DNA of 50,269 bases. It comes from a bacterium. Lineage in GTDB: Bacteria; UBP14; UBA6098. This document shows, piece after piece, positions 6,964 through 31,779 of the stretch (its first letter is position 1; every line of letters starts with the position of its first letter). Position numbers and translations under genes: made by a program. The stretch lies in NCBI GenBank assembly GCA_023145965.1, contig JAGLDC010000080.1, forward strand, positions 1 to 50,269, given 5' to 3'. A model generated the notes under the pieces. That model made no database searches. It saw only the letters and a program-made list of their open reading frames with translations, and was not told the DNA's origin.

Positions 6964-7779
6964 ATGTTTTTTAAAGGCAAAATCGCTGGTGTTTACACTC
7001 TCCTAGCAATCGGAGTTACATTTATTTTTTGCTTATCCTGTTCCGAAGGTATTGGTCCATCTGCTACGGAAAATTTACTCGCTGGTTCGGTCAATCTAGG
7101 CGAACTTAGCGGTGTTTCAGCATCAGATATTAAAGTCTATTTAGTTGAGTTCCAGACAACTGGAATGGCCCGGGTAGATTCAGTAACACCGGATTATACT
7201 GGCGAATATGAATTTGAGGGCTTCGATTTCGGAAATTATGGGATCGAATCCTCTACTGCATATGGAATTTATCCGAATTACTATGGTTTTCACGATGGCA
7301 ATCGCAACGGCTCTTTTGGTTCAGGCGATGCAGTAGTTTTTTCAAGTTATGGACATGTAAGTTATTACAATGTGCCGCTTTATGGTGATTTCCCAGATAC
7401 TATCGTATATGAACTCGAACCCAATAATGATGCTTTTCTCTCGCAAGAACTGGGAATTATTCACTGTAAAAATATTCGTGGAGATTTAACCTCTGGGGGT
7501 TTTTCCCCACCAGACCAATATACTGGAGATTTGGACCTATATCACTTCGAAGCGGTTTGGACAGGATATTTAGTCGCCGAGCTCAGTTGGTCTTCCAGTT
7601 ACGACCTTGATTTATTTCTTTATGACGGTAGTGCGCTCACTGTCATTCAAAGCGCTGCAACCGAAGGTTATGGCCCTGAACGACTCTATAATTCATTATA
7701 TCGAGGCGACGATTTCATCCTTCTTGTTGCATCCATAGATGGTCCCAGCAGTTATGAATTATCGATTAACATTGAGTAG
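6964..7779 (+). CDS. Lipoprotein with C-terminal PPC (pre-peptidase C-terminal) domain
   Basis: A 271-residue probable surface lipoprotein. A signal peptide ends in L-S-C26. Residues about 38-130 look like a beta-rich domain related to the carboxypeptidase-regulatory fold (a 'tropical calyx' of Y-E-F-E-G-F). The linker E-L-E-P-N-N-D-A is the standard lead-in of the PPC domain, which follows with G-D-L-D-L-Y-H-F and Y-D-L-D-L-F-L-Y-D-G and runs to the end. PPC domains usually accompany secreted peptidases, but no catalytic domain is present, so this may be a binding or anchoring protein. It starts three bases after the ferredoxin stop. Confidence 0.7.
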   Translation: MFFKGKIAGVYTLLAIGVTFIFCLSCSEGIGPSATENLLAGSVNLGELSGVSASDIKVYLVEFQTTGMARVDSVTPDYTGEYEFEGFDFGNYGIESSTAYGIYPNYYGFHDGNRNGSFGSGDAVVFSSYGHVSYYNVPLYGDFPDTIVYELEPNNDAFLSQELGIIHCKNIRGDLTSGGFSPPDQYTGDLDLYHFEAVWTGYLVAELSWSSSYDLDLFLYDGSALTVIQSAATEGYGPERLYNSLYRGDDFILLVASIDGPSSYELSINIE

Positions 7780-8675: not shown

Positions 8676-11044
8676 TAACCAACATTAAATCGCGCTTACT
8701 CTTAACTCTCGTTCCAATACTTGTTATACTCTTCGGACTTCTTGTTTATATTAGCTTCAAAGAAAGCAAGGAAACAGTCCTAAAACAAATTACGCGAGAG
8801 TCGTATGAGCTTGCGCGGTCGCACGCAAAGGAATTCGATGTCCTTTTCGAATCGGCTCGTATGTCTGCGGAAGGACTTGCGCTTTCTCTTTCGGATTCTA
8901 AAGGATGCTCCAAAGAGAATGTCTTGAGGAAGTTAAGACATAACCTCAAAAAGGACCAATTCATTTATGGTTCGACAGCATCGTTCATTCCTTCGGCAAC
9001 ACGAATGGGAAGTTTCGCGCCCTACTTCTATAGAATAGGCGATAGCCTTATCTATAATGACCTCGATACCGACGATTATAATTATACATCTTGGGAATGG
9101 TTTACTAGACCGATAGCTGACGGACACGGTTCATGGAGCGAACCATATTTCGATGAAGGTGGCGGTTCCATTTTGATGACAACATATTCTGAGATCATCA
9201 AATGCAACGGAAAGACCGTAGGAGTGGCTACTATCGACATCGCGCTTGACGAGCTCGTTAGTAGAATAAAGAAATTGCATATTGGGCAAACGGGTTATGC
9301 CTTCATTATTAGCAAAGATGGTCATTTTATTGCCTACCCGGGAGAGGACATCCTTTCCAGCTTGACTATATGGGAGATGATCGAAAACTCAGAGACTCCC
9401 GCTATGCGCGATTTTGCCAAATTGATTAAGCCTAATGTTGCAAATTATATCGAGATGCCGGACCCATTCTTCGGGAAGAAATCGTGGATAATCACAACTG
9501 AAATACAATCTACCGGTTGGACTTTCACTATAGTTTATCCAAGTGATGAAATACTTAAGCCGCTTATTACGCTTAGGAACAAGGCTTTTTTCTTTGCTGG
9601 ATTAATAGTGATAATATTGATTGCGGTTGTAATATTGATTTCATCGACCGTTACTTCTCCTCTTAAACGGCTCGTTAGGCAAATAAAGGAATACACCGAC
9701 GGCAACTATGAGCAAAGATTATCGGATCAGAATGGGCCGAAAGAAATTCGCGATCTGTCCCGCGCTTTTAATACTATGGGTGCAGCAATATCGGAACATA
9801 TAGAAAATATTCGCAAGACGACTGCTCAAAAAGAGCGCTATCGCCATGAACTTACTATTGCCGCAGAAATTCAGAGGAGTATTCTACCTCATGAATTTCC
9901 ACCATTCCCGGAACTGGCTGACTTAATAGATATATATGGTTTTAACAGGCCGGCACTCGAAATTGGGGGTGATTATTTTGACTTCTTTAGATTGCATGGA
10001 GGTAAAATAGCGCTCATTATAGCCGATGTCTCGGACAAAGGCGCACCGGCTTCATTTTTCATGGCAATGACAAGGATTTTAATCCGCGAGGTCGCTTCAC
10101 AGGGCCACTCCCCCGCCGAAATACTCAGGCGTGTCAATCACAGATTGGCCCAGGGGAATCTTTCCTCGATGTTCGTAACACTATTATATTGCGAATATAA
10201 ATTGGACACCGGGGATATACGCTTAGCTTGTGCTGGACATAATGCACCTATTTGTATATACTCCGATGGCCGAGTCGAGCAGATACCAATGAATGTTGGT
10301 CTTCCTCTTGGAGCTTTACCCACAACTCATTACCAAACTACAGAATTCCAACTTCCAACATCTAGCACTATGTTTCTTTACACAGACGGCATCACCGAAG
10401 CCATGGATAAAAGTGGCAAAGAGTTCGGGCTGGAAAAACTTGCCTTCAATCTTAAAGGAGCCAATGAACGCGAATGTAAGGAAATAGCTCATGAAATATT
10501 GGATAAGATAGATAATTTTGCCGATGGTGCTCCGCAATGCGACGATATAACAATGCTTATCCTAAATCGGAAATACAACAAAGAGCCAATCAAGTATCCT
10601 ACGCAACTGCAGATGGAAAAATCAACCCTTCTCAGATTACCGGCACATACTAATGTGCTCGATAAAATCGCTACACTTGCCGAACAAATTGCCAATGATT
10701 GCGGATTTGACAATAAGGCTACATACCAAATCAAATTGGCTCTCGATGAGATAGTTAATAATGTAATAATGCATGCATATAGCGGGAATCCCTCTGAAAC
10801 CTTTCAGATAAAATTCATCCCATTCGATGGTGGTTTAAAGATAGAGATTATTGATTATGGTATTCCATTCGATTTTAAGGAAAAACTAGATCGCTACGAT
10901 GGCAAAGCCACCGCCGATCAAGCCATTGGCGGAATAGGGCTCTATCTCGTTAAACAGTTCGTCGATGAAGTTCATTATGAACCGGAAACCGTGGATGGCA
11001 ATAAAGTTACAATTATAAAACTAAAAGCACCTAAAGGTGAATAA
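8672..11044 (+). CDS. Membrane sensor with Cache, HAMP, PP2C phosphatase and HATPase kinase domains
   Basis: A 790-residue signalling protein that should both phosphorylate and dephosphorylate the STAS protein upstream. Layout: TM helix 8-28; extracytoplasmic Cache-type sensor about 32-300; TM helix 305-325; HAMP 326-380; coiled linker; PP2C domain 400-635 with acidic residues at G-G-D434-Y-F-D, A-D452-V-S-D, T-D572-G-I-T-E and D-D625-I-T; GHKL ATPase 650-788 with L-D-E693-I-V-N-N, I-I-D728-Y-G and G-G-I-G-L-Y-L. The last domain is RsbW-like. It starts at TTG overlapping the STAS stop. The ligand sensed is unknown. Confidence 0.92.
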   Translation: MITNIKSRLLLTLVPILVILFGLLVYISFKESKETVLKQITRESYELARSHAKEFDVLFESARMSAEGLALSLSDSKGCSKENVLRKLRHNLKKDQFIYGSTASFIPSATRMGSFAPYFYRIGDSLIYNDLDTDDYNYTSWEWFTRPIADGHGSWSEPYFDEGGGSILMTTYSEIIKCNGKTVGVATIDIALDELVSRIKKLHIGQTGYAFIISKDGHFIAYPGEDILSSLTIWEMIENSETPAMRDFAKLIKPNVANYIEMPDPFFGKKSWIITTEIQSTGWTFTIVYPSDEILKPLITLRNKAFFFAGLIVIILIAVVILISSTVTSPLKRLVRQIKEYTDGNYEQRLSDQNGPKEIRDLSRAFNTMGAAISEHIENIRKTTAQKERYRHELTIAAEIQRSILPHEFPPFPELADLIDIYGFNRPALEIGGDYFDFFRLHGGKIALIIADVSDKGAPASFFMAMTRILIREVASQGHSPAEILRRVNHRLAQGNLSSMFVTLLYCEYKLDTGDIRLACAGHNAPICIYSDGRVEQIPMNVGLPLGALPTTHYQTTEFQLPTSSTMFLYTDGITEAMDKSGKEFGLEKLAFNLKGANERECKEIAHEILDKIDNFADGAPQCDDITMLILNRKYNKEPIKYPTQLQMEKSTLLRLPAHTNVLDKIATLAEQIANDCGFDNKATYQIKLALDEIVNNVIMHAYSGNPSETFQIKFIPFDGGLKIEIIDYGIPFDFKEKLDRYDGKATADQAIGGIGLYLVKQFVDEVHYEPETVDGNKVTIIKLKAPKGE

Positions 11045-19045: not shown

Positions 19046-19078
19046 AACAAACACTTAAAAAAATAGAAAGAAATATTG

Positions 19079-22000
19079 ATGAAATCAACCAACAAATTTC
19101 TCCTTATCTTTGTGGTTTTAGCTACAATTTGTGGAACTGTGCTTCCGTTAACTTATTTTCGCGTTTTGGTTGACGGAACAGAATCTGACACTCAAACTCA
19201 AGGACAATCGCAGGTTTTCGAGATGGACTGTGATGCCTACGGAAAGGTCATGCTTTCGGTTTATTATGATGTTTCGGGTGATGCTTCAATATCACCGGAA
19301 GATTATTGTGCTTTTCTTTTTGGATTCAACGACAATGAAAGCGGATTTCCTTCCGATAGCGACCCTACGGTCGGCGCAATAGAAATGTCCTGGCCTGTTA
19401 ATTTCCCCCCGGGAGATTTTATAATTATCGCTTATGAGGATGCTGACACGATTATATATCCATATTCAGTCTATGAACCGATCATTATAGATTACTCTTT
19501 ATCAGGGAAAATAACACTGGAGGGCATTACCCCACCGGATGAATTGCTTCGTCAGGTCTCGGTTGTCGCTTTAGATCTTACAACATTCGAAGCGACAGCT
19601 GGCAAATGCGATTCTCTTGGTGATTATACATGTAATTGGTTTGGCGATACTGGCTCGGTAACGATTATGTTTTTCGAGTTACCTTTCGATCGTTGGAATA
19701 CCGAAGGTCTGATGCCATCGGTTGAAATCTATGGCCATGAAACAGGAGTGGACATTACAATTCCAAGGTATATTCCAGATACAGGTTATTTTAGAGGAAA
19801 TATTTCCTCGACTTTTTCTGATATAGATTCGCTTATAGTCCTTTACTTATCTTATGATGATAGTTGTGGTGAATCTGATACACTATATATCGATTTAGTA
19901 GGAGGGTCTTTCGAGGTTCCTATTTCCACCGGTATGTGTGACAATGTTATTTGCCGATTCGAATATTATAAACTCCCTGATGGAATACTGTGGCCCTGCT
20001 CTGATACATGGGAATTTAACCTTTCTGAAGGTTCTTTAGAATACGAATACTACGACACTCTTATACAATCAGACGACACAATATGGTTACAATTCGATTA
20101 TTACAGTGGCACTCCATCCTTTCCCGCAGAACTTCCACTTAAAATTGACAGTTACGAATTAATGGCGTATTCGCGGGTGACTCTTGAACCGGGAATTCTG
20201 ACTCCCATTCCAGTTAGAAGCGAAGGGCGTGATGTCGAATACAGAATCTTCAGCAATTGTGAGGATTGTATTCCAGACACTCACGGTATCTGGTTTGTTC
20301 CGGATTCTATGGGGCGATATATAAGAATTCTAGCTGGTGATACAGCTCAAACATACATCCGTGCAATGCGCTCGACTTGTGTGGGCACCCTTTTCACTGC
20401 TGATGGAGGTATTCTGGATGATCCAGCTCACATAGACCACTATGTTTATCTGGGTTACAATGAAGACAAAGTAATCGATGCGGGAATAGTTAACATACCG
20501 GTTTTCAGTGATGCCCTTTATTCTATTCGTCCATGGGCTGAAGGCTACATGACCCAGAATTATATACAAAGATGGATTTCACCGGGGGTAAATAGTATCA
20601 ATTTCACTATGGCTGAACTCGACAGCTCTTTCGAGATATTCCTGGCCGGAGATTCACTTTTCGCTGGAGACGAAGAATTTCAAGTAAAGGTTATGCATCA
20701 AGCTACGGGAAATTTCGTTGATACGCTGGTTTCTGCAGGGACATGGTTTAGCTATCCAATAAGCTCATCACTCGAGGGCGCTTACAGCATTACTATCGGC
20801 AACCGCCATTTTATGGGAATTTTCGATTATTATGTAGAAAATAATGGTTCCATTCCAGTTAGAGCAGGAGATAGCCTTACAATAAACATCATCTCGCCTA
20901 TATCTCATTTTTGTATCGATTGGACAAGAGACATGGATGATATGTGGGAGACCGATGTCTGGATAGCAACACATCACTATGTTGTGAATTATTATCGCGG
21001 TTCAGATACAATCCCTGCCTATTTTACGCCAGATGTAATACTTGGAGATATGTCTATTCCGAATATCCGTTGTGGATTCCCTATTTTTTCCGAGGATTTG
21101 AATGTGAAAATCGAGCCTGCCTTTGGATATGTTGAAGAGCATGGTTTTATAGCTAACCCAAGGGGATATATACTCGGCCCTTCCATGCTGGCAGACACTA
21201 TCGATGCTTACTTCAATTATGCTTGCTATCATCTCTGGATAGCGCTTGATGGTTATCCGGCATATTTCCTCGATGATGACTATCTGAGAATAGAAGTAGA
21301 AGGCAACGAGATGCCTTCTACTTTGGGCCATCTCTTCCAATGCGAATACAGGCTATTCGATGCCGGCGAGGGTAACCTGTTTGGCTATCATCAGCTTTGT
21401 GATGCAGACTGGACAATAAGACTCCCGAGCTCGCTTCCGGGAGGATTCACTCCGGAGATCACAGAAACACTTTTGCATATCACTGACCCGGACACCTTCG
21501 ATTGGCCGAAAGACACACTACGCATTGCTGTAACGCCCCCTCCCTGTATCCACGGAAGCATTATTATTGAACCCGATCCGTTATATCCAATAGCCACGAG
21601 GGAATTATCCATCGGCCTGAAAAACCCTGTTGACGACAGCCTGCTTTATTCGACTAAGGCTTATCGAAATCTCGACGAAATAGAATATATCCTTCTCGAT
21701 GTGGAACGCGGTGATTACAACGTTGTTGCTGAATATCCATCACCATATTCCTATTTTATATACCCTCAAGAGTTCAATCTTGCCTATTTAAGCGGCGATA
21801 CCGTATTGAGAGACATATATATAGGTAATGCTTTTGGGGAAATAACTATCAGTTTCGACATAGAACCAAGTGAAATTGAAGGAAGAACACTCATCGCGGA
21901 TATGCTTCCGCCAGATGACTGGTTCGATATTGTCGCTGAATACTCGATAGAAGATACATCAATGTTTATTAATCTTCCCGATGGTTCGTGGGCGTTCACT

Positions 22001-22972
22001 GCGCCTATAATTCCCGGTTGGACAGTCTCTCCAGAGGAAACAACTATCGAGATACTCGATAGCCCAACTGCGTTTAACATCTATTTCGATTACATCCCAG
22101 ATATTTCTACCGGTTATATCTACGGCTTGATGTATCAGGATGAAACAGATCCTTCACCATTCGATCTTAGTGATTTGGTAATAGACCTTTATGACCTTTG
22201 GGACACTCCGATCATGGAGACTACAGTCGCACCAACTACAGGGCTCTTTAGCTTCACAGGTGTTCCGACCGGCGACTATTATATCACTATACGTAATACT
22301 GGAAGCGCCGAGGCTTTTATTTATCCAGATTTCATCTCGTTATCAGTAGATGCGGAGGAAACGACTTCTGTTACTAGTTATATAGACGAGGCCAATGCCG
22401 ACCTGATAGTCTCCTTCGAGGGTGTTTTGGCAAGCGAGGTTAGTATCAGTGAAATCGCTTTCAGCACCGATATCCCATATCTCCCATCGAATTTCACTTT
22501 ACCTTATAACACACATAGAATTGCAGATACCTTTGCAATTTGCGATGGCGCTTGGAGTATCTATGCGCCTTCTATAGATACATTCACTATATCACCAAGC
22601 GATACGACTATCGTTATAGATGAATCATATTGCACTCATAATGTGTTTTTCCGCAACACAACCGGAATATTCGATGGTATTGCGAAGCCAGAAGATTTCG
22701 ATGTGCGAGTCTATCCAAATCCATTCAATTCGAGCTTGTCTATTGAAATCCGTTCTGAAAAATATCGTGCTGAAAATATCGAGATATTCGACATCACCGG
22801 CCAGCTTATCGATGTGATACAAATTGGCGAAATCGACCCTAAGAGGATAGATTCACCCAACGGTTGTTCGGTAATCTGGGAACCTTCCGAGGGAACCGGC
22901 ACGGGGATATATTTTATCAAGGTCTCGAGCGATGGAAGATCGGCGACTTTGAAAGGGCTATATATAAAATAA
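19079..22972 (+). CDS. Giant secreted multi-domain protein with C-terminal sorting-type domain
   Basis: About 1297 residues. A signal peptide (hydrophobic 8-24) is followed by a long series of beta-sandwich repeats with carboxypeptidase-regulatory/Fn3-like strand patterns, for example L-S-G-K-I-T-L-E-G and G-Y-I-Y-G-L-M-Y-Q-D-E-T. Residues about 1210-1297 form an Ig-like C-terminal domain: V-Y-P-N-P-F-N-S-S-L-S-I-E-I, I-E-I-F-D-I-T-G-Q-L-I-D, G-I-Y-F-I-K-V and the end G-L-Y-I-K. Such ends direct proteins to the type IX secretion route in Bacteroidetes relatives. ATG 19079 follows an in-frame TTG 19076; either could be used. No enzyme motif was seen. It lies 33 bases after the tail-fibre-like gene and 12 before the next. 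Confidence 0.75.
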   Translation: MKSTNKFLLIFVVLATICGTVLPLTYFRVLVDGTESDTQTQGQSQVFEMDCDAYGKVMLSVYYDVSGDASISPEDYCAFLFGFNDNESGFPSDSDPTVGAIEMSWPVNFPPGDFIIIAYEDADTIIYPYSVYEPIIIDYSLSGKITLEGITPPDELLRQVSVVALDLTTFEATAGKCDSLGDYTCNWFGDTGSVTIMFFELPFDRWNTEGLMPSVEIYGHETGVDITIPRYIPDTGYFRGNISSTFSDIDSLIVLYLSYDDSCGESDTLYIDLVGGSFEVPISTGMCDNVICRFEYYKLPDGILWPCSDTWEFNLSEGSLEYEYYDTLIQSDDTIWLQFDYYSGTPSFPAELPLKIDSYELMAYSRVTLEPGILTPIPVRSEGRDVEYRIFSNCEDCIPDTHGIWFVPDSMGRYIRILAGDTAQTYIRAMRSTCVGTLFTADGGILDDPAHIDHYVYLGYNEDKVIDAGIVNIPVFSDALYSIRPWAEGYMTQNYIQRWISPGVNSINFTMAELDSSFEIFLAGDSLFAGDEEFQVKVMHQATGNFVDTLVSAGTWFSYPISSSLEGAYSITIGNRHFMGIFDYYVENNGSIPVRAGDSLTINIISPISHFCIDWTRDMDDMWETDVWIATHHYVVNYYRGSDTIPAYFTPDVILGDMSIPNIRCGFPIFSEDLNVKIEPAFGYVEEHGFIANPRGYILGPSMLADTIDAYFNYACYHLWIALDGYPAYFLDDDYLRIEVEGNEMPSTLGHLFQCEYRLFDAGEGNLFGYHQLCDADWTIRLPSSLPGGFTPEITETLLHITDPDTFDWPKDTLRIAVTPPPCIHGSIIIEPDPLYPIATRELSIGLKNPVDDSLLYSTKAYRNLDEIEYILLDVERGDYNVVAEYPSPYSYFIYPQEFNLAYLSGDTVLRDIYIGNAFGEITISFDIEPSEIEGRTLIADMLPPDDWFDIVAEYSIEDTSMFINLPDGSWAFTAPIIPGWTVSPEETTIEILDSPTAFNIYFDYIPDISTGYIYGLMYQDETDPSPFDLSDLVIDLYDLWDTPIMETTVAPTTGLFSFTGVPTGDYYITIRNTGSAEAFIYPDFISLSVDAEETTSVTSYIDEANADLIVSFEGVLASEVSISEIAFSTDIPYLPSNFTLPYNTHRIADTFAICDGAWSIYAPSIDTFTISPSDTTIVIDESYCTHNVFFRNTTGIFDGIAKPEDFDVRVYPNPFNSSLSIEIRSEKYRAENIEIFDITGQLIDVIQIGEIDPKRIDSPNGCSVIWEPSEGTGTGIYFIKVSSDGRSATLKGLYIK

Positions 22973-25854: not shown

Positions 25855-26688
25855 TCATGAAGCGCAAATAACCAGATTTCTACCAGATTCTTTGGCTTTA
25901 TATAAGGCATCATCCGCGCATTTAATAAGACCTTCGAATGAATCACTAGTCCTAGGTGATATCGATGCAACTCCGAGGCTAATCGTTACAAATTTGCTCG
26001 CTGGATTCTGTTCGTGCACAATCCCAACATTTTCGACACCGAATCTAATATTCTCGGCTATTTCGAGCGCTGTCTCAATAGCAGTTTCTGGGAGAACAAT
26101 AACAAACTCCTCACCACCGTAACGCGCAGCAAGATCACCCGGACGAAGAGCAACCTTGTCGAATACCCTTGCAACAGCCTTAAGACACTCGTCACCCATC
26201 TGATGGCCGTAGGTATCGTTATATTTTTTGAAGCAATCGACATCGGACATTATGATCGCTACCGGTGTATCGGTTTCTATAGAATTTGCCCATTCTCTCT
26301 CGATATATTCGTTAAAAAAGCGTCTATTAGCAATCCTAGTTAAGCCATCGAGATTAGCTAGTTTCTGGAGTTCTTTATTTGCTATACGAAGTTCTTTTGT
26401 TCTTTCGGCTACCATATCCTCGAGATGATGCGCGTAATCCTCGATCTTCACCTTAGCCTCTTTAAGTTCGGCAATTATCTGTTCTAAGTGGAACTCTCTG
26501 GCCTCCACCTTCATCATCATCATACCAAAATTTTCGGCAAGGTCGGTAAATTTAACCGGAACGTCCTCGCTGGCTGTCATTTTGAACAATTCCTGAGCAT
26601 CGACATTATCGTAATCACCATAGGCGATTTGTTTTGATAGGGAATTAAGCCTATTTATTAATAAGTCGATTCTTTCTTTGTCAGTCAT
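25855..26688 (-). CDS. Diguanylate cyclase (GGDEF domain)
   Basis: Makes cyclic di-GMP from two GTP. The 277 residues comprise an N-terminal helical region with a long coiled coil (about 75-110) and a C-terminal GGDEF domain from about 112. The active-site loop is R-Y-G191-G-E-E-F195, an intact GGEEF, and an inhibitory I-site R182-P-G-D185 lies five residues before it, so product feedback is likely. The D-L-D-equivalent D-V-D-C-F-K-K-Y-N-D-T-Y-G-H is intact. No membrane helix or sensor domain is present. AAAGGAAG precedes the ATG. It is the last gene of the operon starting at 27766. Confidence 0.93.
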   Translation of the reverse strand: MTDKERIDLLINRLNSLSKQIAYGDYDNVDAQELFKMTASEDVPVKFTDLAENFGMMMMKVEAREFHLEQIIAELKEAKVKIEDYAHHLEDMVAERTKELRIANKELQKLANLDGLTRIANRRFFNEYIEREWANSIETDTPVAIIMSDVDCFKKYNDTYGHQMGDECLKAVARVFDKVALRPGDLAARYGGEEFVIVLPETAIETALEIAENIRFGVENVGIVHEQNPASKFVTISLGVASISPRTSDSFEGLIKCADDALYKAKESGRNLVICAS

Positions 26689-26711
26689 GCGCTTCCTTTG
26701 ATAAGTAAATT

Positions 26712-27113
26712 CTATGTTTCGGTTTTTTCAAGTGTAGCGTTGATTTTACCCTCAGCATGCCGCTTTTCTTGCGTTGCTATATATTTAGTAACTAATTCAA
26801 TATGAGAATTCGAAACGCTAACTATACCGTATCCTTTTGCCCATTCGAGTTTTTCATCTCGCCCCAAACCTGAAATAAGCTCTGTGGTGCGTTCCTTTAT
26901 CTCGGAAACGATGTCATCAGGTGCAGCAATCGGCGGCATTGCCACTAAAAGATGCACATGATCTTCGAGAGATTTAGCTGCGATTTGCTTTCCGCCTATA
27001 CTCGATATAACTTCCTCGATTTTCGTGTCAATCAATTTGATAGTCACGGGATGCAGCTTTTCCCCGGTTTCTATTTTAATGATTATGTGATAGAATAATT
27101 CACTGAACGGCAT
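26712..27113 (-). CDS. IS200/Y1-type HUH transposase-like protein, operon-embedded
   Basis: A 133-residue protein of the Y1 (IS200/IS605, REP-associated) transposase family. It opens F-Y-H-I-I-I-K-I-E, has the metal-binding D-H52-V-H54-L-L-V, then W-A-K-G-Y-G-I-V-S-V-S, and ends with the catalytic Tyr helix T-K-Y111-I-A-T-Q115-E-K-R-H. All catalytic residues are therefore present. Yet AAGGAGGAG for this gene lies inside the end of the upstream TPR gene, whose stop is two bases away, and the diguanylate cyclase follows after 23 bases. Neither a TnpB gene nor IS-end hairpins were seen in these short gaps. It is more likely a domesticated gene than a mobile element (inference). Confidence 0.82.
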   Translation of the reverse strand: MPFSELFYHIIIKIETGEKLHPVTIKLIDTKIEEVISSIGGKQIAAKSLEDHVHLLVAMPPIAAPDDIVSEIKERTTELISGLGRDEKLEWAKGYGIVSVSNSHIELVTKYIATQEKRHAEGKINATLEKTET

Positions 27114-27115
27114 TC

Positions 27116-27766
27116 TTATACTCCTCCTTTAGAAAGTCTTTCTTTAGCTATCTTAGAGGCAAAAGAGCCTGGCATTTTATCCAATACCCATTTGCATAAG
27201 TTAAGGAATTCAGGCGAATCTGGCAAGTGATGTCTATATATTTCCATAATTTTGGTAATAGCTTCCTCTCTCGATTGCCCCACGACAACCGGTTTTTGGG
27301 CTATCTTATAAAGAGTCTCTATAGCTTTTTTATATTCACCTAGTTTCAACCAATATATATCCGCTATTCTAAAAAGCGGTATTACTTCCTCTTTATTATC
27401 TTCGAACCTTTTTTGATATTCTTCGATAGCTTTCAAGAATTCCTTTTTAAAAACGAAAACCTCGATATCTTCGTAATCGAGTGCATTTTCAGTTTCAACA
27501 CTATTATTACTAAAAACGAAATCACCAATATCGACAAATGAAAGCATTATTCTCATTCCAATTCCAAAAACGATTAGGGCAATCAAAGCCATGAAAGCTA
27601 CCCAACAAAAAGGCACCCTAGCGCCTTTCGCCTTGGCAAACGAATAACCGAATCCTATTGCTAGAATAAGAACTAACAATCCCGCCGCATAAATATATAG
27701 CATATAGCGTTCTTGATCCGGGCTTTTTCCAAAAAGGAGTTCCTTGATTTTTAGTAAAACACTCAT
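27116..27766 (-). CDS. Membrane protein with TPR-like cytosolic domain (hypothetical)
   Basis: 216 residues from ATG 27766; a longer frame to 27874 overlaps the divergent hydrolase gene and its promoter region, so it is rejected. Two membrane helices lie at about 20-45 and 52-78. They are followed by a helical domain with TPR-like pairs (F-L-K-A-I-E-E-Y-Q-K-R-F, L-G-E-Y-K-K-A-I-E-T-L-Y-K-I), suggesting a protein-interaction scaffold at the membrane. No catalytic motif is seen. It heads the operon with the Y1 transposase-like gene and the diguanylate cyclase, and its last codons (K-G-G-V) contain the ribosome binding site of the next gene. Confidence 0.7.
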   Translation of the reverse strand: MSVLLKIKELLFGKSPDQERYMLYIYAAGLLVLILAIGFGYSFAKAKGARVPFCWVAFMALIALIVFGIGMRIMLSFVDIGDFVFSNNSVETENALDYEDIEVFVFKKEFLKAIEEYQKRFEDNKEEVIPLFRIADIYWLKLGEYKKAIETLYKIAQKPVVVGQSREEAITKIMEIYRHHLPDSPEFLNLCKWVLDKMPGSFASKIAKERLSKGGV

Positions 27767-27814: not shown

Positions 27815-28501
27815 TTGGTCAAGGTAAAATGGTTGGGACACTCGGCTTTTTTCATCTCCAATAATAAATTCCAAATCCTGATCGATCCTTTTATTTCAGG
27901 AAATCCCAGCTCTCCGGTTAAGGCGGAAGATATCGAGGCACAATACATATTAGTCACTCATGGCCATAGCGATCATATCGGCGATGCAATTCCCATCGCA
28001 AAAAGGTGCAATTCTTTGATAATAGCTCCAAACGAACTTGGATACTACACCGAAAAAATGGGCACGCGAACTCATCGAATGCACATAGGAGGTAAAGCGA
28101 ATTTCGACTTTGGCAGCATCAAGCTAACCCAGGCCTTTCATGGAAGTGCTATTATCGAAGATGGCAACATACTCTATACTGGTATGCCTTGTGGTTTTAT
28201 CATCTCAATTGATGGGAAAAATATATACCACGCCGGTGACACGGGTCTTTTTGGCGATATGAAACTCATCGGAGAAAGAACCCCCATTGATCTAGCTTTA
28301 TTACCCATAGGGGATAATTTTACTATGGGACCGGAGGACGCATCGTATGCTGTCGATCTTTTAAAACCCAGAATTGCTATACCGATGCACTATGGCACGT
28401 GGCCAATTATAGACAAAGACCCTTATCTTTTTCGCGAAGGCGTAAGGAATGGAACAAGCGAGATCGTTATTTTGAAACCGGGACAGGAAATCGAGATTTA
28501 A
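27815..28501 (+). CDS. UPF0173 metal-dependent hydrolase (metallo-beta-lactamase fold)
   Basis: A 228-residue cytosolic protein of the UPF0173/YtkL family. The metal site is T-H49-G-H51-S-D53-H54, and the family's V-K-W-L-G-H-S-A-F-F start and the later I-Y-H-A-G-D-T-G and P-M-H-Y-G-T-W segments are present. Physiological substrates of this family are not settled. TTG 27815 has AAGGAGG (27803-27809) five bases upstream. It is divergent from the TPR gene and ends before a strong hairpin terminator. Confidence 0.92.
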   Translation: MVKVKWLGHSAFFISNNKFQILIDPFISGNPSSPVKAEDIEAQYILVTHGHSDHIGDAIPIAKRCNSLIIAPNELGYYTEKMGTRTHRMHIGGKANFDFGSIKLTQAFHGSAIIEDGNILYTGMPCGFIISIDGKNIYHAGDTGLFGDMKLIGERTPIDLALLPIGDNFTMGPEDASYAVDLLKPRIAIPMHYGTWPIIDKDPYLFREGVRNGTSEIVILKPGQEIEI

Positions 28502-28620: not shown

Positions 28621-31600
28621 TTATTTTATAAGTATGGCCTTTTTTGTTTTTTCACTTCGGTCGTTTGCTACTTTAATCAGATAAACACCACCTGAAACAA
28701 CCTCCCCCAAGTGATCCTTGCCATCCCATATAATGCATCCTTGCTTTGGTGCAAGGTCAAAAGACCTTACCGATCTACCGGAAATATCGAAAATCTCAAG
28801 TCTCGATGGCTCGGCATTTCCCTGGATTTCAATACTGAGTGAAGCATTGAATGGATTAGGCGCGAAATTGAGGCTAAGTTTTTCGGGTTGTTCGACATAT
28901 TCGTCGATGTCAGAAATATTGGTTACCAATTCGATATCATCTATATACCAGCCTCCAGCAGTGACATGCGCGTCTGAACCAAAGCGAAAACGCACTCTGG
29001 CTCTAGGAGCATAAAGAGACAAGTCGAGTGAATCTTTGCGCCATGCAAATGAAGATGAATAACATGGCGTTCCGGCCTCGAAGGGGCTGTCTGGATTATC
29101 TCTGATATACCTATTGTAACCGGGCTGAGGTTCGACCTGATGCCACAGCTCTCCCCCATCGATAGAGACCTCGACAATGCCACCATCCCAAGCTTGATAA
29201 CTTCCTTCATCCTCCGCATCCATGGTATGCCAAAATTTTAGATAAGCGACAGTCCCTAGGTTTAGGTCGGGCGTCGAAAGCGCGCCATCGGCCTGATCGG
29301 AGTATTCGCTCCCACTTCCGAAATAGAAACAATAATCACCATCTGTCCAAGGATTGTTCTGGCTAACTCTTGTCCATTCGTTGGTATATCCAACACTTAC
29401 GATCTTCGACGAGTATCCTCTGCCAGGAACCTCAAAATCCTCAAGATAGCCGGGGTAAATATAAACCTTGAATGACCCCGAAGGTGGAAAAGATGCTACA
29501 TGGTGCGCGACGGAATTGTCAAAGGCTACTGCCCAATAATCGACAGTATCGCCTCCGGAGGGCATTCCCGGTAACACGCCTGACCATACATCCCAAACAT
29601 CGGTCTCAGTCAGTGGCTGGGGAGCGAGATCGACAGTTCCAATCCTGCCATAGATACTCGCCAAAGATATTCCTTGATCATCTGAAATATTAACTATCCA
29701 ACTAGGTGGCCACGCATATTCGAACCAAGGGCCTATAGGCAACGCGCTTATTGTGGGCACTGTGCTGTCTATAATTACATGAAAGGTATGCCACGAATCG
29801 GGAGCATCATGCGGCGATGAGAGTGGATTTCCACCGTTGTCTTCGGCTATAATGTAGTAATCGATTGTGCTTCCGCGCCGTTGTGCCGGGACATAGGCTT
29901 TAAAAACTCCAAATACATCGGCCATCGATAGGTACGACCAAGGGCCAGAATCCACACGCCAGAAAACGCCAATTGAGTCGGCAGCCACGCCAAGAGTAGC
30001 ATTAAAAGTCGCCTCGACGCGGTATGTCCCCGTCGTATCCTCAGTATTATTTAATGCCCTATGGTTCACCTCGATATTGAAGCCCGGCCCGATTCCATGG
30101 GCGTAATAGCTTTCATAAATAAGTCTGCCATTGGGCGTGCCGTTATAGATATTACCGTCATCATCATCGATATTAACAGTAGCCCAGAAAAATTCCTCAA
30201 AATCTTCGGGATACAAAAATCTTGAAAGATGAACAAGCGAATCGGTGAAATATCTGCCTAATTCCTCTCGAATTGGCCACCAGCATGCGCTAATGATCTC
30301 GCCATCGGCGTGAACCTCACCATAAAAATCGCCCGGAAAGACCTTAGGGCCGTTAACCCTCCTCATAAACGCTGTCCCCGAGCGATATAAACCACCATCA
30401 CCCATAAGGGGATTTTCAGTTTTGCTGCAGGCAAAATAATCGCTAAGGGCTTCGTCGATTGCCCCGCTTTGACCTGAATAAGGCAGTGCGCTAGATGGAT
30501 AAATATTGTGTGTAACACCGTGTGTATATTCGTGGTAAATTACATCGCAGAAAAGCACCATATCGTAAAAAATCGTAGCTCCTCCACCAAAATTTATCCC
30601 ATAGCCATCCCAGTTGGCATTATCATCCATTCCGGAATAATTCACTGTAACAGGCATCGAATAATCCATACTAGAAAAGCCGAGTGTATCCTTAACATAA
30701 TTGTGTATTACATTAACGTGGTAATAGGCATTCATCTCATCATCAGGAGAGCTTGAAGTAGTCCAAGAGTGGTTAAATGGCGAGGTGAAGCTTGCAACAT
30801 TATATAATGCTTCAGAGCCAGCATCGTTATCAACGTGAGCGTATCTACCATAATGAGATGTCGAATATGTAGGCGTGGCAGCGGAAATATCTGTCGCCCA
30901 ATTACCGGAAATATCGGTATAGATTGGAATGGTATTTAAAGTAACACGCGCAAATTCCCAAGCACTGGTTTCTAGAGGATCATCCTTAAATTCGGAATGA
31001 TATTTACCATAAACATTTCCAGAATGCTCGGCAGTTCTAAGTTCATTTGAGATCGAAATAATGCTTCCGCTTTGACCATCGACGATAACGCGCCACAACC
31101 CCACGGGGTCTTTGGTGAGAATATCGAAAGCCCAGACTCCGACAAGAGAATAAACTTCGACGCCCCAAATTGGGAATAGATATTCGCCCAACATGTCGAT
31201 GCGAATCGGTTCATCTGTCGGCGCTATCGTGGCAATGGCTTTATTAAGTGCGTATTCCTCGGAAAGGGCGTTCTTATTGGAATATTCTAAAGAGGGAATT
31301 AACTTATTCGATAAGAAACTTATGCCACCCGTGGCTGTTATCATCGTAGTTAGATGACAACCCCAAACAGGTATTCCATTTTTGTATTGCTGTAAAGCAA
31401 CAATAGCGCGATTCCTTGTCCATTTAACAGAGATGATTCCAAGGTCTTCTGTCAGAACACCAAAGAGTCTTTCATTTGAATCGACGAAGTTCAAAAGGGC
31501 CGAAGCGGCGTTTTGTTCGTTAACCGAGGAATAACCCTCGATTTGTATTGGATAACCTGTGATCATCCTGAACGTGCCGGTTAGCGGATCGATTCTATAA

Positions 31601-31779
31601 TAACAGGGCGAGGCTGGAAGATTTTCGCCATTGGGAATAGCATTCATTGGCCCAAAAGCAGCAGGCTCAGCTTCAGGCCGCGCGAGTTTAGAATTTTCAA
31701 AACTGTAGCTATCGGTTGGCACAAAAGCCAAAGCCGATAAACAAATAACAGATATTATTATGACTCTATAAAGCGACAT
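28621..31779 (-). CDS. Secreted M4/M36-type zinc metalloprotease with C-terminal sorting-type domain
   Basis: A 1052-residue exported peptidase. Signal peptide (about 1-28), an FTP/PepSY-type propeptide region (about 50-250), then the catalytic domain: H416-E-Y-T-H420 zinc motif, E443 in G-A-I-D-E-A-L-S-D-Y-F as third ligand, and a later E-V-H-A-D-G-E-I. The H-E-x-x-H and G-A-I-D-E parts resemble thermolysin (M4), while V-H-A-D-G-E resembles fungalysin (M36). After it come Fn3/Ig-like repeats, a jelly-roll domain of the immune-inhibitor-A kind ending G-W-Y-I-D-D-I-E-L, and the sorting-type end (A-P-N-P-F-N-A-S, F-D-I-S-G-R, A-I-L-I-K). GGAGG lies five bases before the ATG. Probably acts outside the cell on proteins. 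Confidence 0.9.
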   Translation of the reverse strand: MSLYRVIIISVICLSALAFVPTDSYSFENSKLARPEAEPAAFGPMNAIPNGENLPASPCYYRIDPLTGTFRMITGYPIQIEGYSSVNEQNAASALLNFVDSNERLFGVLTEDLGIISVKWTRNRAIVALQQYKNGIPVWGCHLTTMITATGGISFLSNKLIPSLEYSNKNALSEEYALNKAIATIAPTDEPIRIDMLGEYLFPIWGVEVYSLVGVWAFDILTKDPVGLWRVIVDGQSGSIISISNELRTAEHSGNVYGKYHSEFKDDPLETSAWEFARVTLNTIPIYTDISGNWATDISAATPTYSTSHYGRYAHVDNDAGSEALYNVASFTSPFNHSWTTSSSPDDEMNAYYHVNVIHNYVKDTLGFSSMDYSMPVTVNYSGMDDNANWDGYGINFGGGATIFYDMVLFCDVIYHEYTHGVTHNIYPSSALPYSGQSGAIDEALSDYFACSKTENPLMGDGGLYRSGTAFMRRVNGPKVFPGDFYGEVHADGEIISACWWPIREELGRYFTDSLVHLSRFLYPEDFEEFFWATVNIDDDDGNIYNGTPNGRLIYESYYAHGIGPGFNIEVNHRALNNTEDTTGTYRVEATFNATLGVAADSIGVFWRVDSGPWSYLSMADVFGVFKAYVPAQRRGSTIDYYIIAEDNGGNPLSSPHDAPDSWHTFHVIIDSTVPTISALPIGPWFEYAWPPSWIVNISDDQGISLASIYGRIGTVDLAPQPLTETDVWDVWSGVLPGMPSGGDTVDYWAVAFDNSVAHHVASFPPSGSFKVYIYPGYLEDFEVPGRGYSSKIVSVGYTNEWTRVSQNNPWTDGDYCFYFGSGSEYSDQADGALSTPDLNLGTVAYLKFWHTMDAEDEGSYQAWDGGIVEVSIDGGELWHQVEPQPGYNRYIRDNPDSPFEAGTPCYSSSFAWRKDSLDLSLYAPRARVRFRFGSDAHVTAGGWYIDDIELVTNISDIDEYVEQPEKLSLNFAPNPFNASLSIEIQGNAEPSRLEIFDISGRSVRSFDLAPKQGCIIWDGKDHLGEVVSGGVYLIKVANDRSEKTKKAILIK

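Follow-up and report, generated by a model that had tools for sequence, protein, structure and literature searches.

A single-copy class 1 Y1 (HUH) protein of the candidate phylum UBP14, probably adopted by the host, with an incidental diguanylate cyclase neighbor

Does a gene for a 133-residue Y1 (HUH) transposase-like protein, lying between a TPR-like gene and a diguanylate cyclase gene, belong to a mobile element, to a signaling unit, or to the host? We examined this locus in a 50,269-nt stretch of DNA (the window, meaning the whole stretch analyzed), which corresponds to contig C80 in a 2.5-Mb assembly with 96% completeness (G000). All genomes compared are MAGs. The features of the locus, by window coordinates, are the following.

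25855-26688, minus strand: GGDEF diguanylate cyclase (GGDEF, 172.5 bits), a neighbor in this species only
26689-26711, minus strand: 23-nt gap between the Y1 gene and the cyclase gene, with a lineage-specific breakpoint here
26692-26699, minus strand: ribosome binding site of the cyclase, AAAGGAAG, inside the 23-nt gap
26712-27113, minus strand: Y1 (HUH) TnpA_Y1-like gene, 133 aa, with H52-V-H54, Y111, Q115, and H119 (profile and fold); the alignment places the lineage tail RHAEGKINATLEK at the C-terminal end of its protein
27116-27766, minus strand: membrane TPR-like protein, upstream of the Y1 gene
27123-27130, minus strand: ribosome binding site of the Y1 gene, AAAGGAGG, inside the last codons of the TPR-like gene
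27815-28501, plus strand: metal-dependent hydrolase of the MBL fold, oriented divergently to the TPR and Y1 genes and used as the landmark of the locus

The window protein was identified as Pfam Y1_Tnp (51.9 bits, cut-off 23) and scored below the cut-off of the NCBIfam IS200 model (46.9 against 55). H52, H54, Y111, and Q115, which the earlier note had read from the 133 residues, are all present, along with H119. The predicted fold (pLDDT 85.4) matches the TnpA structures of IS200, ISDra2, and IS608 with E about 1e-7, and because IS200/IS605 TnpA proteins are its best structural matches, the modeled protein has the catalytic architecture of a Y1 nuclease.

Orthologs of the Y1 gene were identified in all 5 genomes of the window's family (f1) and in 7 of the 8 genomes of family f4 of this candidate phylum UBP14 class, with 1 ortholog per genome and with identities to the window protein of 48-71% in the other four f1 genomes and about 35-41% in f4. 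Two copies suspected in the sister species of the same genus (G002) were rejected, as two contig ends overlap there by 2,954 bp at 100% identity, leaving one copy. The ortholog was not found in family f3, including a genome with 97% completeness (G006), and the gene is therefore dispensable within the class; f2 genomes harbor Y1 proteins of other types instead. We analyzed 11 full-length orthologs, with one more (G014, f4) cut at a contig end. F3, H52, H54, W91, Y111, Q115, R118, H119, N125, and T127-L128-E129 are invariant in all 11, which bears out across orthologs the Tyr and HUH set (H52, H54, Y111, Q115) on which the earlier note had relied. The tail RHx5NxTLE is common to the UBP14 orthologs and was not seen in any further Y1 protein that we examined. 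Phylogenetically, the UBP14 Y1 proteins form one clade (100/99) apart from the IS transposases (100/99), and within it f1 (94/94) and f4 (100/99) separate, as expected from vertical descent; deeper in the tree, the UBP14 clade, the IS clade, and two matches meet at an open fork with long branches, which is compatible with a position either within subclass 1.2 or next to the IS clade. Synonymous sites of the orthologs are near saturation (pS 0.57-0.83) and pN is 0.13-0.27. Between the sister species, dN is 0.231 for the Y1 gene, 0.235 for the adjacent hydrolase gene, and 0.240 for the cyclase gene. The Y1 orthologs are under purifying selection.

We searched the locus and its relatives for signs of mobility. 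Structure in the 120-nt flanks of 11 loci was no greater than in shuffles (z between -1.5 and 2.1), with no IS-end hairpins at any of these loci, and no gene for TnpB (PF07282) was found in the window's genome; both absences had been read from the short gaps around the gene in the earlier note, and they extend to the genome and to the orthologous loci. TnpB, which is a frequent but not an obligatory partner of IS200/IS605, was present in 1 of 17 genomes of the class, on a different contig from that genome's Y1 gene. Instead of several near-identical copies or variable sites, we found a single copy at a kept locus. The window protein gave only two weak matches among 72,556 plasmids, compared with 2,480 plasmid records matched by an IS-type TnpA query, and none among phages. 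A comparison for an empty site in a genome lacking the Y1 gene (G013) located only the last 65 residues of the ThiC neighbor. The Y1_Tnp fold and a Y---Q motif like that of IS200 TnpA would fit a recent or decaying IS200/IS605 insertion (a solo tnpA), but a single copy at the same locus in several genera, with no ends, no TnpB, and no decay, and with a dN similar to that of neighboring genes, leaves that explanation with hardly any probability. The Y1 gene is not an insertion sequence.

The earlier note had also called the gene lone. This needs correcting, as the same genome encodes a second Y1 protein, of REP type (RAYT-like; G000:C5:11694-12254, L086). It was found with NF047646; a PF01797 scan had wrongly indicated that the window's Y1 gene was the only one in the genome. 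This RAYT-like gene carries a REP-like coding insert, and at its flanks the ribosome binding site and first codons of the adjoining gene are imperfectly duplicated; that adjoining gene reads like a V-type ATPase subunit. Elsewhere in the class, type IIG restriction-modification enzymes (Eco57I methylase) contain in-frame Y1 domains (TnpA_REP-like, HUH, Y---N) at a single position shortly ahead of the NPPY/NPPW motif (L076:605-4318 in G011:C114, minus strand; L074:6477-8726 in G007:C15; L073:2-2032 in G007:C31; L075 in G015:C236). Outside the class, the match in a 1041-aa frame (L253, G250:C152) spans the Y1 domain and the NPPY end. A 1648-aa type IIG/ISP restriction ORF in G003:C60 (L077:2350-7293) contains an in-frame RAYT (Y1, YILQNP) and many translated REP-like repeats (VGQTFLS...EQAGMPVLP), with no stop codon.

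We compared the UBP14 proteins with known Y1 systems. With IS200/IS605 TnpA (subclass 1.1; 2f4f, ISDra2 2xm3, IS608 2a6o) they share the fold, the HUH motif, the catalytic Tyr, and the metal-binding Gln, but the window gene lacks hairpin ends and TnpB, is present in one copy, is inherited vertically, and falls in a separate clade. Like RAYT or TnpA_REP (class 2; E. coli RayT, 4er8), the window protein is a single-copy domesticated Y1 protein; the RAYT kinship suggested earlier nevertheless fails, since the Y motif is YIATQ, of type Y---Q and not the Y---NP of RAYTs, no REPs flank the gene in the window, and the score with the NCBIfam RAYT model is 16.7 bits, where the cut-off is 80. Judged by motif and profile, the UBP14 Y1 proteins are not RAYTs. 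Quentin et al. 2018 (PMC6006769) divided the superfamily by motif, with class 1 being Y---Q and its subclass 1.1 comprising the IS. Their subclass 1.2, from Cyanobacteria and Bacteroidetes, is defined by Y---Q--HH, WQ, and its own C-terminal domain of about 30 aa, and its members are low in copy number and have neither IS ends nor REPs, with the role given as unknown (PMC6006769). The UBP14 proteins resemble subclass 1.2 in being short class 1 Y---Q proteins of low copy number, not adjacent to TnpB and lacking IS ends and REPs, and the two share the core W-x2-GYG-x2-SVS...V-x2-YI-x2-Q. They differ in having, in the spacing of that study, Y---Q--RH (R118, H119) in all 11 orthologs in place of Y---Q--HH, A, K, or D after the W in place of WQ, and the short tail RHx5NxTLE in place of the C-terminal F-x-E-E-Y...Y-D-E-R-Y, and in forming a separate clade hosted by UBP14 and not by Cyanobacteria or Bacteroidetes. 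As they behave like subclass 1.2 yet depart from it in three sequence features, the UBP14 proteins are best called a sister variant of it.

The upstream neighbor is the older association. As described in the earlier note, the ribosome binding site of the Y1 gene falls within the upstream TPR gene, in its final codons, and the TPR stop codon (TAA) ends 2 nt ahead of the Y1 ATG; the TPR matches of this upstream protein are below the Pfam cut-offs. The TPR gene is the only recurrent neighbor of the Y1 gene and was identified in 3 of 5 f1 members (the window, G003, and G004), its stop codon lying 2, 1, and 9 nt ahead of the Y1 gene in three genera, and the hydrolase landmark is present at the Y1 locus in 4 of 5. 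The order is hydrolase, TPR, Y1, and cyclase in the window; hydrolase, two TPR genes, Y1, and lyase in G004; hydrolase, TPR, Y1, and contig end in G003; and hydrolase, Y1, and lyase, with no TPR gene, in G002. In G001, the Y1 gene is at another site, after an uncharacterized 187-aa gene and ahead of a NUMOD4-HNH gene. The f4 loci have other adjacent genes (NfeD, CMD, DHDPS, ThiC) and no TPR neighbor, and no conserved functional partner of the Y1 gene was found outside f1. Thus, of the gene order to be compared among relatives, the hydrolase-TPR-Y1 part is kept across genera, but the cyclase is part of it in the window species only, and TPR-Y1 coupling is older than the cyclase pairing. Translational coupling to the TPR gene in three genera, together with a new conserved tail that could be an interaction surface, would suit a noncatalytic role in which the ferredoxin-like fold persists as a scaffold for binding nucleic acids or as a partner of the upstream TPR protein. 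We regard such a role as unlikely, given that a scaffold would have no need for the observed invariance of H52, H54, Y111, and Q115, and that the TPR neighbor is missing from two f1 genomes and from every f4 genome.

The cyclase pairing raises the question of a shared function. The earlier note had the Y1 gene locked into an operon with the cyclase gene, 23 bases apart, and the Y1 stop codon does lie 23 nt ahead of the GGDEF ATG. A functional unit that processes DNA in response to c-di-GMP would be in keeping with genes on the same strand separated by 23 nt, with a cyclase that has its own ribosome binding site, and with the intact GGEEF and RxxD I-site read from its sequence. Synteny led us to reject this unit as very improbable. 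The cyclase gene adjoins the Y1 gene in 1 of 5 f1 genomes, the window's own; the cyclase ortholog of the sister species G002 (71% identity) is encoded on C11 beside a sigma-54 (NtrC-type) response regulator of a two-component system; and other genomes of the class gave no cyclase match at E<=1e-40. After the Y1 gene, G002 and G004 instead encode a lyase of the histidine-ammonia-lyase type (PF00221 in G002), which was not found in the window's assembly. Relative to a conserved PBP, XRE, GH57-like, and galT-like block, the Y1, hydrolase, and peptidase block is inverted between the window and G002, and the point just after the Y1 gene is therefore a breakpoint. The point where the Y1 and cyclase genes meet is a derived breakpoint of this inversion, and the cyclase neighbor is incidental, derived, and species-specific. 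We found no paper linking Y1 proteins with diguanylate cyclases.

We searched for a candidate substrate among dispersed repeats. Scanning k-mers over 670 kb of the window's genome, we identified a dispersed intergenic element, ATTTTTGC-N38-GCAAAAATCGTGACAGCG with the 3' tag CGTGACAGCG (also written 5' GGGATTTTTGC-N38-AGCAAAAATCGTGACAGCG), and a shorter form, GCGCTGGCGCG-AAATTTGC...CGTGACAGCGC. Copies lie between genes in both orientations (examples in G000 are L117 [C36] near 7511 and L121 [C40] near 10032). Over the whole genome, the 18-base core with one mismatch gave 50 copies and a reversed control pattern 0. With a covariance model (E<=0.001), the five f1 genomes had 56, 7, 21, 64, and 6 copies (about 56 in G000); the ten f3 and f4 genomes had none, and in f2 genomes there were one to three matches, all weak. 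Stem covariation was strong in G003, with double changes in 5 of 14 pairs (score 0.308 versus 0.150 shuffled, 0/500). Rfam annotated only a tRNA in the window and three G000 stretches carrying the repeat, and the 3' tag is unlike the GTAG or CGTC tags of REPs. The statistics on repeats derive from sequence samples of G000 (670 kb), G010 (216 kb), and G006 (343 kb), and the 50 kb of E. coli scanned for k-mers as a positive control did not suffice to reveal REPs. Among other repeats of the G000 sample, a 14-mer able to encode a PNPFN tail, CCGAATCCGTTCAA, is one of the commonest, and 2 large secreted-type proteins of the window (19076-22972 and 28621-31779) end in a PNPFN...-type sorting tail. 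Immediately after the Y1 stop codon, G004 alone (L035, G004:C298) has the REP-like palindromes GGGAGCACCTATGTGTGCTCCC and GTCGGCACCGGCCGAC, and GTAG-type REP arrays (GTTGAGTAGCCCGAAGGGCGTATCGAAACG) are abundant in G002 (e.g., L134, L128, and L139), where no RAYT was found.

The proposed search for REP-like palindromes has thus yielded a covarying hairpin repeat in f1 genomes but none beside the window's Y1 gene; no copy lies in the window or next to that gene, and the locus is therefore no REPtron. The Y1 protein could be the processing enzyme of this f1-specific repeat, RAYT/REP-like though outside the RAYT clade, since all 5 f1 genomes harbor both the repeat and the Y1 gene, G002 and G004 have the repeat and no class 2 RAYT was found in them, and the hairpin covaries and is intergenic in both orientations. 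The chance of this is small. The eight f4 genomes, seven of them with the Y1 gene, have no repeats, and G010, with the Y1 gene and no RAYT, has no dispersed repeats in 216 kb, so that the repeat follows family f1 rather than the Y1 gene, its distribution being confounded with ancestry; the other-class RAYT in three f1 genomes could also be the cause, and the RAYT-like gene of G000 is another possible partner of the repeat. There is a slim chance that a previously undescribed class 1 Y1 clade has been domesticated in UBP14 and acts in f1 on a new dispersed, covarying hairpin repeat. If true, a REP-like system would have arisen a second time, independently and on the IS200 side of the superfamily.

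Taken together, the Y1 gene is probably a host-adopted (domesticated) member of class 1 (Y---Q) TnpA_Y1, closest in its properties to subclass 1.2, which is single-copy and vertically inherited, most likely still processes single-stranded DNA (ssDNA), and has the cyclase as an incidental neighbor. The domesticated look and intact catalytic set pointed out in the earlier note are upheld by a single, vertically inherited copy with neither IS ends nor TnpB. From the invariant residues and the matching fold, we infer Tyr-dependent processing of ssDNA, and the protein is presumably an ssDNA nickase/ligase. Tyr111 would nick and rejoin hairpin-containing ssDNA while H52, H54, and Q115 hold a metal, and the protein may serve as a housekeeping DNA-processing factor; catalysis, substrate, and housekeeping role are all putative, and the invariant HUH and Y residues could serve binding. 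A rearrangement in the window's lineage would then have placed the cyclase gene beside the Y1 gene.

The cyclase partner, as a species-specific breakpoint, illustrates that neighborhood reasoning from a single genome can mislead. To our knowledge, arguments for domestication have until now concerned mainly the RAYT side of the superfamily. The UBP14 gene would add an example, clean and vertically inherited, of a class 1 (IS200-side) Y1 transposase becoming a host gene, and because its nuclease residues are strictly retained, a specific role in ssDNA processing can be tested.
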